In this document: positions 50,415 through 56,948 of the stretch, piece by piece
Layout: each line of letters starts with the position of its first letter
Position numbering within the stretch: position 1 is the first letter of the stretch
Assembly (NCBI RefSeq): GCF_018986915.1
Contig: NZ_CP076723.1
Location: forward strand, 4,430,228 to 4,494,227
DNA: 64,000 bases
Origin: Geomonas oryzisoli
GTDB taxonomy: Bacteria; Desulfobacterota; Desulfuromonadia; Geobacterales; Geobacteraceae
Reading direction: 5' to 3'
Notes under the pieces: model-generated
What the model saw: only the letters and a program-made list of their open reading frames with translations
What the model was told of the DNA's origin: nothing
Database searches by the model: none
Made by a program: the position numbers and the translations under genes

Positions 50415-50457
50415 CTTCAGCGTATTCTCTAATTACATGCCCAAAGGAGACGAAAAC

Positions 50458-50742
50458 ATGAGAAGAGCCATTGCAGCCGCCGTTCTTTCCCTTTTCTGCG
50501 CCGGGTTTGCCTTTGCCGCTGACGAGACCGTGGTCGTACTCCCGGCGAAGAACGGCAATGTGACCTTCCCGCACAAGCAACACAAGGACATGCCGGAGAT
50601 GAAGTGCACCAACTGTCACGAAACCGACAAGGGAGGGAAGATCGCGGCCCTCGGCAAGGACTGGGCGCACACGACCTGCAAGGGGTGCCACACCGACAAG
50701 GGCAAAGGGCCCACCAAGTGCAACGAATGTCATAAGAAGTAA
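50458..50742 (+). CDS. Triheme cytochrome c7 (PpcA family)
   Basis: The protein has 94 residues from ATG 50458 (AAAGGAG upstream). A signal peptide ends at FAFA, leaving about 74 residues. Hemes at C50 (CTNCH), C74 (CKGCH) and C88 (CNECH), with axial His in FPHKQHK, as in PpcA-E. These small periplasmic proteins carry electrons from inner-membrane quinol oxidases to outer-membrane conduits. A second paralog lies at 55583. No operon partner is evident. Confidence 0.95.
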   Translation: MRRAIAAAVLSLFCAGFAFAADETVVVLPAKNGNVTFPHKQHKDMPEMKCTNCHETDKGGKIAALGKDWAHTTCKGCHTDKGKGPTKCNECHKK

Positions 50743-50842
50743 CCCCTTTTCCGCCCGAACCACCCCGGCGGGGGCCTCGGCCTCCGCCGCTTTCATTCCT
50801 GCATCCCCACCGCCAAAATCCATTAGAACCCCGCCTATAACA

Positions 50843-50870
50843 TTGACATTCTCTAATTTCTTGGTGTAAT
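50843..50870 (+). promoter_or_regulatory. Sigma-70 promoter of the radical SAM operon
   Basis: TTGACA, 16 bases, TGTAAT; it predicts a 5' leader of about 130 bases before the first small protein. I saw no riboswitch fold in that leader. Confidence 0.65.
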
Positions 50871-51006: not shown

Positions 51007-51435
51007 ATGAAGGACCCTTTTCACGACCTGCACCATCACGAAACCGGAAGCACTTCCCACATCAGGCTCATCTCCGAGGGGGGGAACTCGCACGCCAGGA
51101 GCCCCGACCTTGTCTGCATCGACTCCATTCAAGCCACCCAGAATTGCACCACAGAGACCCAGCATACGGTCTACCCCGCCACCGTCGGGACCGGTTCCGT
51201 CCTTCCGGAAAGCCCGGTCTGCACCCTTCCGCCCGAGCATACCGAGGAGCTGGACCGCGAGATCCTCCCCGCCCTGCTGCGCCAGCGCCTGCAGTTGTTG
51301 AGTCTTCCCTTGACTCCGGCAGCAGCGGTGTCGGTGAAAGAGCGCGGCAGGCTCTGGCAGATCGCCGACGAGGGGTGCGCCTACTCGGTCAGGTTGGTCG
51401 CCGCGCGCATCGCGATATACGCGGAGTCGCGCTGA
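51007..51435 (+). CDS. Candidate radical SAM substrate protein 1 (142 aa)
   Basis: ATG 51007 has GGAGGAG upstream. No signal peptide. A His-rich N-terminus (HDLHHHE) leads to SHIRLISEGG at 18-26, which has the look of a leader ending in a double Gly. Then C37 and C47 (CX9C), C72 and C124. Residues 74-142 form a domain shared with the next gene: LPPEHTEELD, PLTPAAAVSVKERGRLWQI and AYSVRLVAARIAIYAE. It is followed by a paralog and a radical SAM/SPASM gene in one run, so it is probably their target or partner. Family not recognised. Confidence 0.8.
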   Translation: MKDPFHDLHHHETGSTSHIRLISEGGNSHARSPDLVCIDSIQATQNCTTETQHTVYPATVGTGSVLPESPVCTLPPEHTEELDREILPALLRQRLQLLSLPLTPAAAVSVKERGRLWQIADEGCAYSVRLVAARIAIYAESR

Positions 51436-51516
51436 CCGAATCGACAGAGTGGCTGATTACCGGTGGCGGGTCGAAGGTCCGCCGCACCGGATGCTATCCA
51501 ATGAAAGGAGAGAGCG

Positions 51517-51939
51517 ATGGCCGAAGAAAAAATGGGTGGGGAGCACGCCGACAGCAAGCACCTGAAGCTCGTCTCGGAGGGGGGAGGGGATGCATCGACC
51601 CGGCGCGCGCAATGCTGGTCGCCGGACCAGATCGTGGCGAGTTGCATCACGTCCCAGCAGATGGAGAACTTCCGGGCCTACAACAACGTCTGCATGACGC
51701 TGCCGACCAACGACATGTACGTATTCTCGCTGCCGCTGGAGCACGCCGGGGAACTGGACCAGGGGGAGATTCCGCACGCCGTGCGGCAGGAGTTCGAGAC
51801 GAACGGCTCCACCCTGTCGCCGGCGGCGAGGGTCAACGTGCAGCAGTCCGGCAGAGTCTGGTTCATCATCGATCTGGACCGGAAGTACTCGATCCGGATG
51901 GTGCCGACCGGTTTGCTGGTCTACAGCGAAAGGCTATGA
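51517..51939 (+). CDS. Candidate radical SAM substrate protein 2 (140 aa)
   Basis: A paralog of the preceding gene, with AAAGGAG eight bases before ATG 51517. It shares the leader-like KHLKLVSEGGG (14-24), C33 and C43 with the same CX9C spacing, a third Cys C59, and the C-terminal domain LPLEHAGELD ... LSPAARVNVQQSGRVWFI ... YSIRMVPTGLLVYSE. Identity to its neighbour is highest in the last 65 residues and in the leader-like motif, while the middle varies, as expected for modification substrates. There is no export signal. The radical SAM gene starts 25 bp later. Confidence 0.8.
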   Translation: MAEEKMGGEHADSKHLKLVSEGGGDASTRRAQCWSPDQIVASCITSQQMENFRAYNNVCMTLPTNDMYVFSLPLEHAGELDQGEIPHAVRQEFETNGSTLSPAARVNVQQSGRVWFIIDLDRKYSIRMVPTGLLVYSERL

Positions 51940-51964
51940 CCAGCTGCCCAGCCGGAGACCAGTC

Positions 51965-53359
51965 ATGAGCGACCACCACGCCTTCGAGCAGGGAGGGGAG
52001 AACTACCTCTTCTTCAGCCGCTCCGCAAAGCTCTACCAGATCAGCCCGCTGGCAGCCCTGCTGGTACGGGAGTTTTTCCCTGCCGAGGGCGGAGGAGCCC
52101 TGCCCCCACCCGGAACCATGCCGCCGCAGCCGCTTCTTCCCGAGGAAAACACGCTCTACGCCGAACTGCTCGCCCTTTTCACCCACGAGCTGTCGGTTCC
52201 GCTCCCCGCCGCTCATCAGCAGGACGATGCCGGCTCCGAGAACAGCTACCAGACCTTTTCCATCTACCTCGCCCAGACCTGTAACATGGCCTGCTGCTAC
52301 TGCTGGAACCGCGGCGGCACGTTCGGCAAGCCGGGACACGTGATGGAGTGGAGCACGGCCCGCCGCGCCACACAGCTGATCCTATCCCTGGTGGAACGCT
52401 CCAGCGCGGAAAAGATCTTCATCAACTTCTACGGCGGCGAGCCGCTGCTCGACTTCCCGGTGCTGCAGCAGGTGACCAGGGAACTTATGAAACACGAGGC
52501 GCGCCTGGGGAAGAACTTCTGCCTGACCCTGGACACCAACGGCACGCTCCTGGAAGGACACGCCGCGCAGTTCCTGGCCCGCTACTTCACCCAGGTGGGG
52601 GTCAGCCTGGACGGGAGCCAGCGCATCCACGACCTGCTGCGTCCCGGGAAGTACGGCGAGGAAACCTGGCAGCGGATCGTCACCAACATCAGGTGCTTCC
52701 CCAACCCGAAGCTCCTGGGGATCAGGGCCACGCTGACCACCTTCTCGGACAGTTACCTGGAGACCTTCCGCCACCTCACCACCCTCGGGGTCGGCCGCAT
52801 CCAGCTCGAGTACTGCCACGAGCCGGGCTACCACCAAAACCCCATCTACGAAAAGCTGATCGTGCCCCCGCAGCGGCAACTGGACGAACTGCGTGAGTTC
52901 GTCGACTACTACGTCGACTACATCGCATGTTACAAGAGCACCCGTGACATCCCCTTCGTCTCCAATCTTCTGGACAGCATCAACCGGATCAAGCGCGCCA
53001 ACCGCTTCACCCGCCCCTGCGGCGCCGGGACCAACACGCTGGCCATCAACAGCCACGGCGTGGTTTTCCCCTGCATCGCGTTCGTGGAACGGGAGGCGTT
53101 CGCCATGGGGCAGAGCGCTGAGGAGTTGTCCCTGAACCAGTCCCTGCGAGGGTTCGAAGTGGACGGTCAGCTTCCCTGCCACGACTGCTGGCTGCGCTAC
53201 GATTGCGCCGGCGGCTGCTACGCCACCCACTACGACATGACCGGCCACCCCAGGCAGCCGCACCCGGAATACTGCCGGAACATGCAGGGACGGGCGGAGG
53301 TCTACTTCTACGCCCTCACCCAGATCCTCACCAAATGCCCGTGGCACCTGGAACGGTGA
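51965..53359 (+). CDS. Radical SAM/SPASM maturase
   Basis: The protein has 464 residues from ATG 51965 (GGAGACC upstream). Residues 10-40 (ENYLFFSRSAKLYQISPLAALL) look like the substrate-recognition head of peptide-modifying SPASM enzymes such as QhpD. The SAM cluster motif is C106-X3-C110-X2-C113 (TCNMACCYC), followed by FINFYGGEPLL. The C-terminal SPASM region has RPCGAGTNTLAINSHGVVFPC and CHDCWLRYDCAGGCYATH, with Cys for auxiliary [4Fe-4S] clusters. Enzymes of this type form thioether or C-C cross-links, or oxidise side chains in peptides. It follows two small Cys-pair proteins, the likely substrates. It may belong near the Geobacter geopeptide or QhpD-type maturases; I cannot decide which. 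Confidence 0.92.
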   Translation: MSDHHAFEQGGENYLFFSRSAKLYQISPLAALLVREFFPAEGGGALPPPGTMPPQPLLPEENTLYAELLALFTHELSVPLPAAHQQDDAGSENSYQTFSIYLAQTCNMACCYCWNRGGTFGKPGHVMEWSTARRATQLILSLVERSSAEKIFINFYGGEPLLDFPVLQQVTRELMKHEARLGKNFCLTLDTNGTLLEGHAAQFLARYFTQVGVSLDGSQRIHDLLRPGKYGEETWQRIVTNIRCFPNPKLLGIRATLTTFSDSYLETFRHLTTLGVGRIQLEYCHEPGYHQNPIYEKLIVPPQRQLDELREFVDYYVDYIACYKSTRDIPFVSNLLDSINRIKRANRFTRPCGAGTNTLAINSHGVVFPCIAFVEREAFAMGQSAEELSLNQSLRGFEVDGQLPCHDCWLRYDCAGGCYATHYDMTGHPRQPHPEYCRNMQGRAEVYFYALTQILTKCPWHLER

Positions 53360-55582: not shown

Positions 55583-55855
55583 TTACTTCTTGTGGCAGTC
55601 GGCGCACTTGGTCGGGCCGGCGCCTTTGTCGCTGTGGCACCCTTTGCAGGTCTTGTGCGCCCAGTCCTTGCCGAACCCTTCGATCTTGCCCGGTGCCTTC
55701 TCATGGCACGCCTTACAGTCTTTCAGCGCGTCCTGGTGCTTCTTGTGGTTGAAGGTGATGTTGCCGTTTTTGGCAGGGAGGGTGATCACGTCGGCGGCGA
55801 AGGCCGCCCCTGCACCGAAGACGACGAGGGCCACTGCTACGACTACCTTTTTCAT
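55583..55855 (-). CDS. Triheme cytochrome c7 (PpcA family)
   Basis: The protein has 90 residues from ATG 55855 (AAAAGGAG upstream). A signal peptide ends at AAFA, mature about 70 residues. Hemes at C47 (CKACH), C70 (CKGCH) and C84 (CADCH), axial His in FNHKKHQ, and the sequence ITLPAKNGNITFNHKKHQ is very close to PpcA of Geobacter. It is the closer of the window's two c7 proteins to PpcA. It carries electrons through the periplasm. A divergent regulator gene with an EF-hand lies 178 bp away. Confidence 0.96.
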   Translation of the reverse strand: MKKVVVAVALVVFGAGAAFAADVITLPAKNGNITFNHKKHQDALKDCKACHEKAPGKIEGFGKDWAHKTCKGCHSDKGAGPTKCADCHKK

Positions 55856-56033
55856 GGTGTGCTCCTTTTCTTTTTGAGTTTTTTGCTGCCGAACTGTGGT
55901 AAAAATAGCATCTGGTCTGCCACCCGGGTATCGACATCTATAGCGATTCCACCCGATGTCGGGTCCCGCGCAGGCCATGTCGGGTCGTCCCGCCCCGGGA
56001 AAGCCCCTTTTTATACCCGCTGAGAGAGTGGTA

Positions 56034-56948
56034 ATGGTGGAAGCCAACGACAAAAACGAAAAGGTCCCCCTGCCGAGCGTCGCCATCGACGGCACCCGGA
56101 TCAGGAACATACGGGAGACCAAGAAACTCACCCAGCTGTACGTGGCCAACGTGGTCGGGGTGACCACCGACACCATCTCGCGCTGGGAGAACAACCGCTA
56201 CCCTTCCATCAAGCGGGATAACGCCCAGAAACTGGCCGACGCCCTCGAAGTACCTCTCGAGGAGGTATTGCGCCAGGACTCTTCCGACCCGGAGGAGGCC
56301 GCGCCGCAGCCGCCCCCGGCTCCAGCCAGGGGCGCCATGATTGCCGTCATCGCCGTCGTTGCCGCTGCCCTGGTCGGCATGCTCCTCTTCTTCCTGCTGC
56401 GGCAGCCTCCCGTTCCTCCCAGCGCCACCCGGTGGATGCCGCGATTTGCCGCTCCCGGCGAGGTCTTCCCGGTGCAGATCAAGGTGGCGCGCCACGTCGG
56501 CGCTCCCTTCGGCTTCATTCTCAGGGAAAAACTACCGACCGGCACCCGCCTGGTCAGCTCGCTCCCCCCCGCCTCCTCCACCGATGCCGAGGCGAAGTGG
56601 CTGGTTCCCAGCGGTGCCACCCCCTTCACCCTCTCCTTCACCCTCCAGGTCCCGGCCGGCTTCACCCCCGGCAAGGACGCGGCCCTCAAGGGCGAGATAG
56701 TCATCCATAACGCAGGCTCCTCGAATCGGACCGAAGCCGTCGGTGGCAGCGGTTCCATCCACATAGGCGCTTACCACTGGGCCGACAGCAACGGGGACGG
56801 CCGTATCGACGACGACGAGATCATGCCCGCCTATTACATCTGCGAAGAGATGAAGGGACTTGGCCTGGACTGGAAGACAATCGAGGCGATCTGGAGCGGC
56901 AAAGGCTACCGCTGGGACGCCAAACACGGCTACACCGTATTGAAGTAA
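56034..56948 (+). CDS. Membrane-anchored XRE-type regulator with periplasmic domain and EF-hand
   Basis: The protein has 304 residues from ATG 56034 (GAGAGAG upstream). Residues 15-80 are a Cro/cI-type helix-turn-helix (KLTQLYVANVVGVTTDTISRWENNR). A Pro-rich linker and one membrane helix (about 104-124) follow, then a beta-rich domain (about 135-245) and an EF-hand-like loop DSNGDGRIDDDE with calcium-ligand spacing. The C-terminal 40 residues are helical. The layout suggests a one-component transmembrane regulator sensing an outside signal or calcium. It is divergent from a PpcA-type gene, a possible target. Confidence 0.85.
   Translation: MVEANDKNEKVPLPSVAIDGTRIRNIRETKKLTQLYVANVVGVTTDTISRWENNRYPSIKRDNAQKLADALEVPLEEVLRQDSSDPEEAAPQPPPAPARGAMIAVIAVVAAALVGMLLFFLLRQPPVPPSATRWMPRFAAPGEVFPVQIKVARHVGAPFGFILREKLPTGTRLVSSLPPASSTDAEAKWLVPSGATPFTLSFTLQVPAGFTPGKDAALKGEIVIHNAGSSNRTEAVGGSGSIHIGAYHWADSNGDGRIDDDEIMPAYYICEEMKGLGLDWKTIEAIWSGKGYRWDAKHGYTVLK

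Follow-up and report, generated by a model that had tools for sequence, protein, structure and literature searches.

Three adjacent genes in a genome like those of Geomonas soil bacteria, encoding two small proteins (sp1 and sp2) and a radical SAM/SPASM enzyme, form a single operon, whose features are collected in Table 1. The interpretation to which we give slightly better than even weight is that the enzyme, guided by a leader, forms Cys-to-Asp/Glu thioether cross-links in cytoplasmic proteins whose folded C-terminal domain is retained. A bolder proposal, offered more tentatively and at somewhat less than even probability, is that two diverged paralogs in the cytoplasm are both stapled by the enzyme, each ahead of its retained C-terminal domain, into a permanently cross-linked pair that is no secreted RiPP and no subunit of a quinone enzyme. 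The operon lies in a window of 64,000 nucleotides, the whole stretch of DNA that was analysed, from a genome represented by a single contig of 4.85 Mb.

Table 1. Positions in the window of the operon and its features.
Feature	Position	Strand	Remarks
Terminator-like hairpin of upstream cytochrome gene	50766-50789		ahead of sp1 promoter
Sigma-70-like promoter, TTGACA-N16-TGTAAT	50843..50870	+	consensus match, not a mapped start
sp1, putative substrate protein 1	51007..51435	+	142 aa; occurs only next to the enzyme gene
sp1 SHIRLISEGG, probable enzyme-recognition motif	51055..51084	+	residues 17-26
sp1 core C37-X-D39 ... C47-X2-E50, predicted cross-link segment	51115..51156	+	
sp1 C-terminal domain	51217..51432	+	residues 71-142; aligned with sp2 domain
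sp2, putative substrate protein 2	51517..51939	+	140 aa
sp2 HLKLVSEGG, probable enzyme-recognition motif	51559..51585	+	residues 15-23
sp2 core C33...D66 with C43-X6-E50 and C59-X6-D66, predicted cross-link segment	51613..51714	+	
sp2 C-terminal folded domain	51715..51936	+	residues 67-140; AlphaFold2
Radical SAM/SPASM maturase gene	51965..53359	+	464 aa
N-terminal RRE-like (PqqD-fold-like) domain	51965..52192	+	residues 1-76; predicted
CX3CX2C radical SAM cluster motif	52280..52303	+	C106, C110, C113; from sequence, invariant in orthologs
SPASM region	53018..53275	+	C352, C370, C405, C408, C414, C418, C437

A preliminary description of this DNA proposed three tightly packed genes under one promoter, with no protease or exporter adjacent, and on these points it holds. 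The three reading frames occur exactly as it gave them, separated by gaps of 81 nt (sp1 to sp2) and 25 nt (sp2 to enzyme). The promoter before sp1 stands behind the terminator-like hairpin, and its region is kept in nine species, where the upstream alignment contains the block ATTGACAT...TTAATTT...TAATGAA; the -10 box is TGTAAT here and GATAAT in most relatives. No Rfam RNA element was found upstream of sp1. The upstream neighbors are a DEAD_2-type helicase gene and a cytochrome c7 gene, the downstream neighbors encode an HlyIII-family membrane protein and an AAA_26/DRTGG protein, and no protease or exporter gene was found among the genes adjoining the operon. On either side of the region lies a small cytochrome c7-type gene, at 50437-50742 (+) and 55583-56194 (-); the two are related to each other and kept in the relatives examined.

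The small proteins and the enzyme occur together in 15 of the 19 genomes of the genus, which, judging from named relatives, includes Geomonas and Citrifermentans bremense; both are absent from the other four. Orthologs of the enzyme (57-100% identity) are found in exactly the same 15 genomes that carry the small proteins, and the four that lack them have distant radical SAM proteins only. Operon gene order is conserved among relatives. In two of these four, G019 and G024, the genes on both sides are kept, and a PAS-type histidine kinase gene, named by eye, occupies the site of the operon (L092:6106-8112; L093:6158-8104). Because this co-occurrence falls within one genus, the 15 genomes are not independent, and its support rests on the joint absence in four genomes together with the conserved order. 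The preliminary description had suggested comparing the distribution of the small-protein family with that of the maturase; the family was not found to be widespread without the enzyme, and strict co-occurrence favors its reading of a maturase with two protein-sized substrates.

Outside the genus, neither the enzyme nor the small proteins were found in the order (141 genomes) or in a 395-genome sample of the phylum in which only top candidates were scored; small-protein searches there gave only partial matches, confined to the C-terminal domain. Patterns derived from the enzyme were also run against 84,980 species genomes, a scan that reaches close relatives only, and returned this group plus one weak clostridial match. 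A weak small-protein match in G053 was dismissed as a chance frame, a 150-aa frame antisense to a 329-aa ORF. Searches for sp2 on plasmids and for the enzyme in viral contigs found none, and the literature searched held no report linking Geomonas with radical SAM. One ortholog of the maturase gene, in G014, is frameshifted at codon 46/47, where a run of 10 C replaces the 9 seen in G015 (L095:3284-4682); this may represent sequencing error, decay or phase variation.

The enzyme has the features of the radical SAM/SPASM maturase superfamily: the CX3CX2C motif, the SPASM cysteine set and an N-terminal RRE-like domain. The intact motif (C106-X3-C110-X2-C113) and the Cys-rich SPASM region, both pointed out earlier, are borne out by comparison of ten orthologs, one per species, in which the motif and all seven SPASM cysteines are invariant; the latter fall in the region aligned with CteB. 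The N-terminus is predicted to form strand-strand-strand-helix-helix and can be aligned to that of CteB from residue 3, which fits a recognition-type RRE-like domain, in a structure model that is of moderate confidence only (mean pLDDT 60).

The enzyme scores below every NCBIfam cut-off. Its best scores, in bits against the cut-off, are PapB (NF047865) 188/340, nif11 maturase 187/519, SCIFF maturase (TIGR03974) 168/425 and QhpD (TIGR03906) 157/453, followed by geopeptide maturase (TIGR04280) 104/400; sulfatase maturase (88 bits), YhhB (68) and cyclophane FxsB (54) are lower. By these scores the enzyme comes nearest to maturases among which there are known makers of thioethers, and it belongs to none of these families. 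Among solved structures, its best relative by sequence is CteB (E 2.5e-45 over enzyme residues 3-449), which is also the top match by fold. In a tree of 24 rows the group occupies its own branch (100/100), apart from QhpD, PapB-type and SCIFF enzymes. We place the enzyme in the group of CteB/SCIFF, PapB and QhpD as a deep separate branch, with long branches and its sister not placed; a position as sister of the SCIFF maturase was set aside as a long-branch placement. The likeness to peptide cross-linking maturases proposed from the sequence is thus one on which NCBIfam scores, the CteB match and the tree agree, and the tree of SPASM enzymes suggested at that stage gives the group a branch of its own. 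The geopeptide maturases, whose radical SAM/SPASM family was originally named in Geobacter, had been suggested for that tree as well and are a poor match.

The next-best relatives of the enzyme that were examined, at six loci in the order (L048, L083-L087) and six in the phylum (L097-L102), adjoin QhpC-type genes, and most also lie behind a QHNDH-alpha-type gene (identified by NCBIfam in L048 and L083 and by eye in the rest). Desulfobacterota QhpD enzymes encoded beside QhpC also miss the TIGR03906 cut-off, with 313-326 of 453 bits. One genome of the genus, G027, has in addition a QhpD-type gene among these Desulfobacterota QHNDH-alpha/QhpC-type loci.

As the preliminary description had it, sp1 and sp2 are paralogs (34% identity over 131 residues, E 7e-22) with a C-terminal domain that aligns between them. 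Neither matches a known family above noise in Pfam, NCBIfam, PHROGs or PADLOC. A role in defence was rejected, the only matches being generic viperin-like ones of the radical SAM core. The layout of the small proteins is substrate-like, with a variable N-terminus, the conserved SEGG motif, a variable linker, a hyper-conserved Cys core and a folded domain. Mean pairwise identities were taken from 14 sp1 and 13 sp2 orthologs. In sp1 the SHIRLISEGG motif reaches 0.99, with dN 0, and the Cys segment 0.83, followed by 0.39 for the stretch behind it and 0.56 for the C-terminal domain. In sp2 the HLKLVSEGG motif (0.84) lies between poorly conserved flanks, the first residues at 0.53 and the linker at 0.58; the core from C33 to D66 reaches 0.93 and the C-terminal domain 0.78. 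The GG of the motif is not conserved in sp2, where four species have SEGD. The N-terminus of sp1 (51007-51054) is His-rich and well conserved, with the sequence DPFHDLHHHE, reminiscent of a metal site.

An AlphaFold2 model of sp2, built from 19 sequences, is disordered over residues 1-30 (pLDDT below 50), and of low confidence to about residue 65; the part that it renders with confidence runs from about 67 to 138, with pLDDT of about 90 or more at residues 71-138. Constraint within sp2 is tightest on the stretch joining leader and folded domain, where model confidence is low: the core from C33 to D66 is the most conserved part of the protein, with dN of 0-0.025 against dS of 0.38-0.84 in four species pairs. 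The C-terminal domain is present in every species compared and under purifying selection. It turns up again in a 1412-aa protein from a different genus (G034, L070:6040-6300; E 6.6e-6, from a profile model that did not contain the G034 protein) and is weakly matched, by profile search, in a 2653-aa frame of G087 (L119, E 1.5e-4), which from its sequence may be TcA-like. Its presence in these other proteins makes it a reusable domain. No PDB fold match to it had E below 0.001, and neither small protein has an evident signal peptide.

The cysteines of the core occur with acidic residues at fixed distances. C37, D39, C47 and E50 are invariant in all sp1 proteins and in the protein of G027, which has a single small gene instead of the pair. 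In sp2, C43 and C59 are invariant across 13 species, as are the patterns C43-X6-E/D50 and C59-X6-D66, acid 50 being mostly Glu, with Asp in G014 and G015; C33 is Ser in three species and Phe in two. The preliminary description had seen a CX9C pair shared by both proteins as the element to be modified. The pairs are there in the sequences of the window (C37/C47 in sp1, C33/C43 in sp2), but with C33 lost in five of 13 species CX9C was rejected as a shared conserved motif. The element that persists is a Cys followed by an acid at +2, +3 or +7 (C-X-D, C-X2-E, C-X6-D/E), which makes an acid, rather than the other Cys, the probable partner of each Cys. The mass loss of 2 Da per cross-link, proposed as a check when Cys pairs were in view, still applies with an acid as the partner.

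At the third position, C-X6-[D/E] is kept over three unrelated spacers: MTLPTN in sp2, NAATPL in deep-branching sp1 proteins (G014, G015 and G022 have an additional C62-X6-E) and SMFSLP in G027. The G027 protein, with C38-X-D, C48-X2-E and C64-X6-D, combines features of both paralogs and may be near the state before duplication. In shuffled sequences, the Cys-then-acid order (acid within 7 residues and before the next Cys) arises in a fraction of about 0.02, for segments picked post hoc; the order alone is suggestive only, and conservation over unrelated spacers weighs more. The sp2 proteins without C33 still keep the acid at 37, so that acid is not kept for a cross-link alone, a point against the cross-linking reading.

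Known maturases offer precedents for such chemistry. QhpD introduces three Cys-to-Asp/Glu thioethers into QhpC, guided by a 28-residue leader that QhpC loses (PMC7876137), and PapB forms Cys-Asp/Glu thioethers, accepting Cys-Xn-Asp with n of 0-6 (PMC9413430). The spacings in sp1 and sp2 (n = 1, 2 and 6, optionally 3) are within the PapB range and near those of QhpC, the basis on which a thioether to Asp/Glu is proposed. Like sp1 and sp2 as we read them, QhpC is protein-sized (about 110 aa), has an N-terminal recognition leader and is retained as a folded protein; like the enzyme, QhpD is a radical SAM and SPASM maturase whose substrate pairs Cys with downstream Asp/Glu. The enzyme, however, is only about 30% identical to QhpD, and sp1 and sp2, two substrates that each carry a C-terminal domain, are not homologous to QhpC (hhalign probability 0.1, no QH_gamma match). 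An adjacent QhpC-type substrate and amine dehydrogenase (QHNDH) subunits, which would mark a QhpD system, do not occur at the operon, nor do the QhpE protease, QhpF exporter or QhpG flavoprotein. We propose that the operon works like QhpD/QhpC; as hhalign finds no relation of the small proteins to QhpC, it is not a member of that system.

PapB and PapA share the Cys-Xn-Asp/Glu logic, and PapB is the best-scoring NCBIfam model. PapA, however, has six C-X3-D/E motifs, against two or three of mixed spacing before a 72-residue domain here; the spacings of sp1 and sp2 are X1, X2 and X6, and the sole X3 (C33-D37) is not conserved. CteB, the SCIFF maturase (PDB 5wgg, 5why), resembles the enzyme over its whole length, including an RRE-like domain and SPASM region; SCIFF peptides, unlike sp1 and sp2, are short and Cys-rich, and no SCIFF peptide gene is adjacent.

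In the mechanism we propose, the N-terminal RRE-like domain would bind H(I/V/L)(R/K)L(I/V)SEGG of each small protein. SAM, the radical cluster and the SPASM auxiliary clusters would then form a C-S thioether from each conserved Cys to a later Asp/Glu, with predicted bonds C37-D39 and C47-E50 in sp1, C43-E50 and C59-D66 in sp2, and C33-D37 as an optional addition. The product would most likely be a cross-linked cytoplasmic protein pair, not a cleaved secreted peptide, because no protease or exporter is adjacent, no signal peptide is evident and the C-terminal domain is always retained.

A different bond in the same two proteins, whether a sactionine at the alpha carbon, a thioether to Thr or another residue that is not acidic, or a C-C cyclophane, is a less probable reading that still deserves serious weight. 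SPASM maturase chemistries are diverse, the best solved relative is CteB, and SCIFF maturases form a thioether to Thr; among the small proteins, every member has Thr at position +2 from C43 and C47, and the sp2 core has near-invariant W34, F52 and Y55. Against a cyclophane stand the far lower scores of the FxsB and YhhB models and an sp1 core (35-53) that has no aromatic residue, and acids alone hold a fixed distance to Cys over otherwise unrelated spacers. Improbable, in our view, is a true RiPP, in which proteases encoded elsewhere would cut away the leader, and perhaps the C-terminal domain, to release a short cross-linked peptide. Tailoring proteases can indeed be unlinked, QhpC loses its leader (PMC7876137), and the EGG end of the motif resembles a cleavage site; yet SEGD in sp2 of four species, the lack of a protease or exporter near the operon and purifying selection on the retained domain in all species compared argue against this reading.

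Slightly less probable again is that the small proteins are accessory or regulatory partners of an enzyme that modifies something else. Some SPASM systems require separate partner proteins, and the enzyme gene is the last of the operon. This enzyme, however, is predicted to have an RRE-like domain of its own, and constraint in sp2 peaks on the Cys segment outside the folded domain, as expected of a substrate core. That sp1 and sp2 are unmodified metal- or redox-active proteins beside the enzyme by chance is very improbable: conserved cysteines and the DLHHHE stretch of sp1 would suit such a role, but joint presence or absence over 19 genomes and conserved operon order speak against coincidence.

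If thioether stapling of sp1 and sp2 is correct, a chemistry known mostly from short peptides would have a protein-sized target. For radical-SAM thioether stapling in which the product is still a protein, QhpC sets the clear precedent. Were sp1 and sp2 a second case, unrelated to the first, served by a maturase lineage of its own and with the substrate duplicated, hardening of proteins would look like a more general use of this chemistry. A single enzyme would then need to handle C-X-D, C-X2-E and C-X6-D/E spread over different substrates, so that specific cross-links are predicted; the duplication provides a natural test, and a well-defined, genus-restricted pair is convenient for carrying it out.

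Related systems were seen in passing. A clade of radical SAM enzymes sister to QhpD occurs on rhizobial, Mycetohabitans, Embleya and Novosphingobium plasmids (L133, L135, L136, L137, L139, L145). Where annotated, its genes are followed by a flavoprotein named "tryptophan 7-halogenase" and preceded by a hypothetical protein of about 260-300 residues, which in L135 contains SPWQNDYRECACYYWAASRPD; this is possibly another protein-maturation system. Within the same wider clade, radical SAM enzymes of Nostoc (L142) and Streptomyces (L144) are encoded beside ferritin-like domain proteins, on both sides in the former and downstream in the latter, suggesting large-protein substrates there as well.
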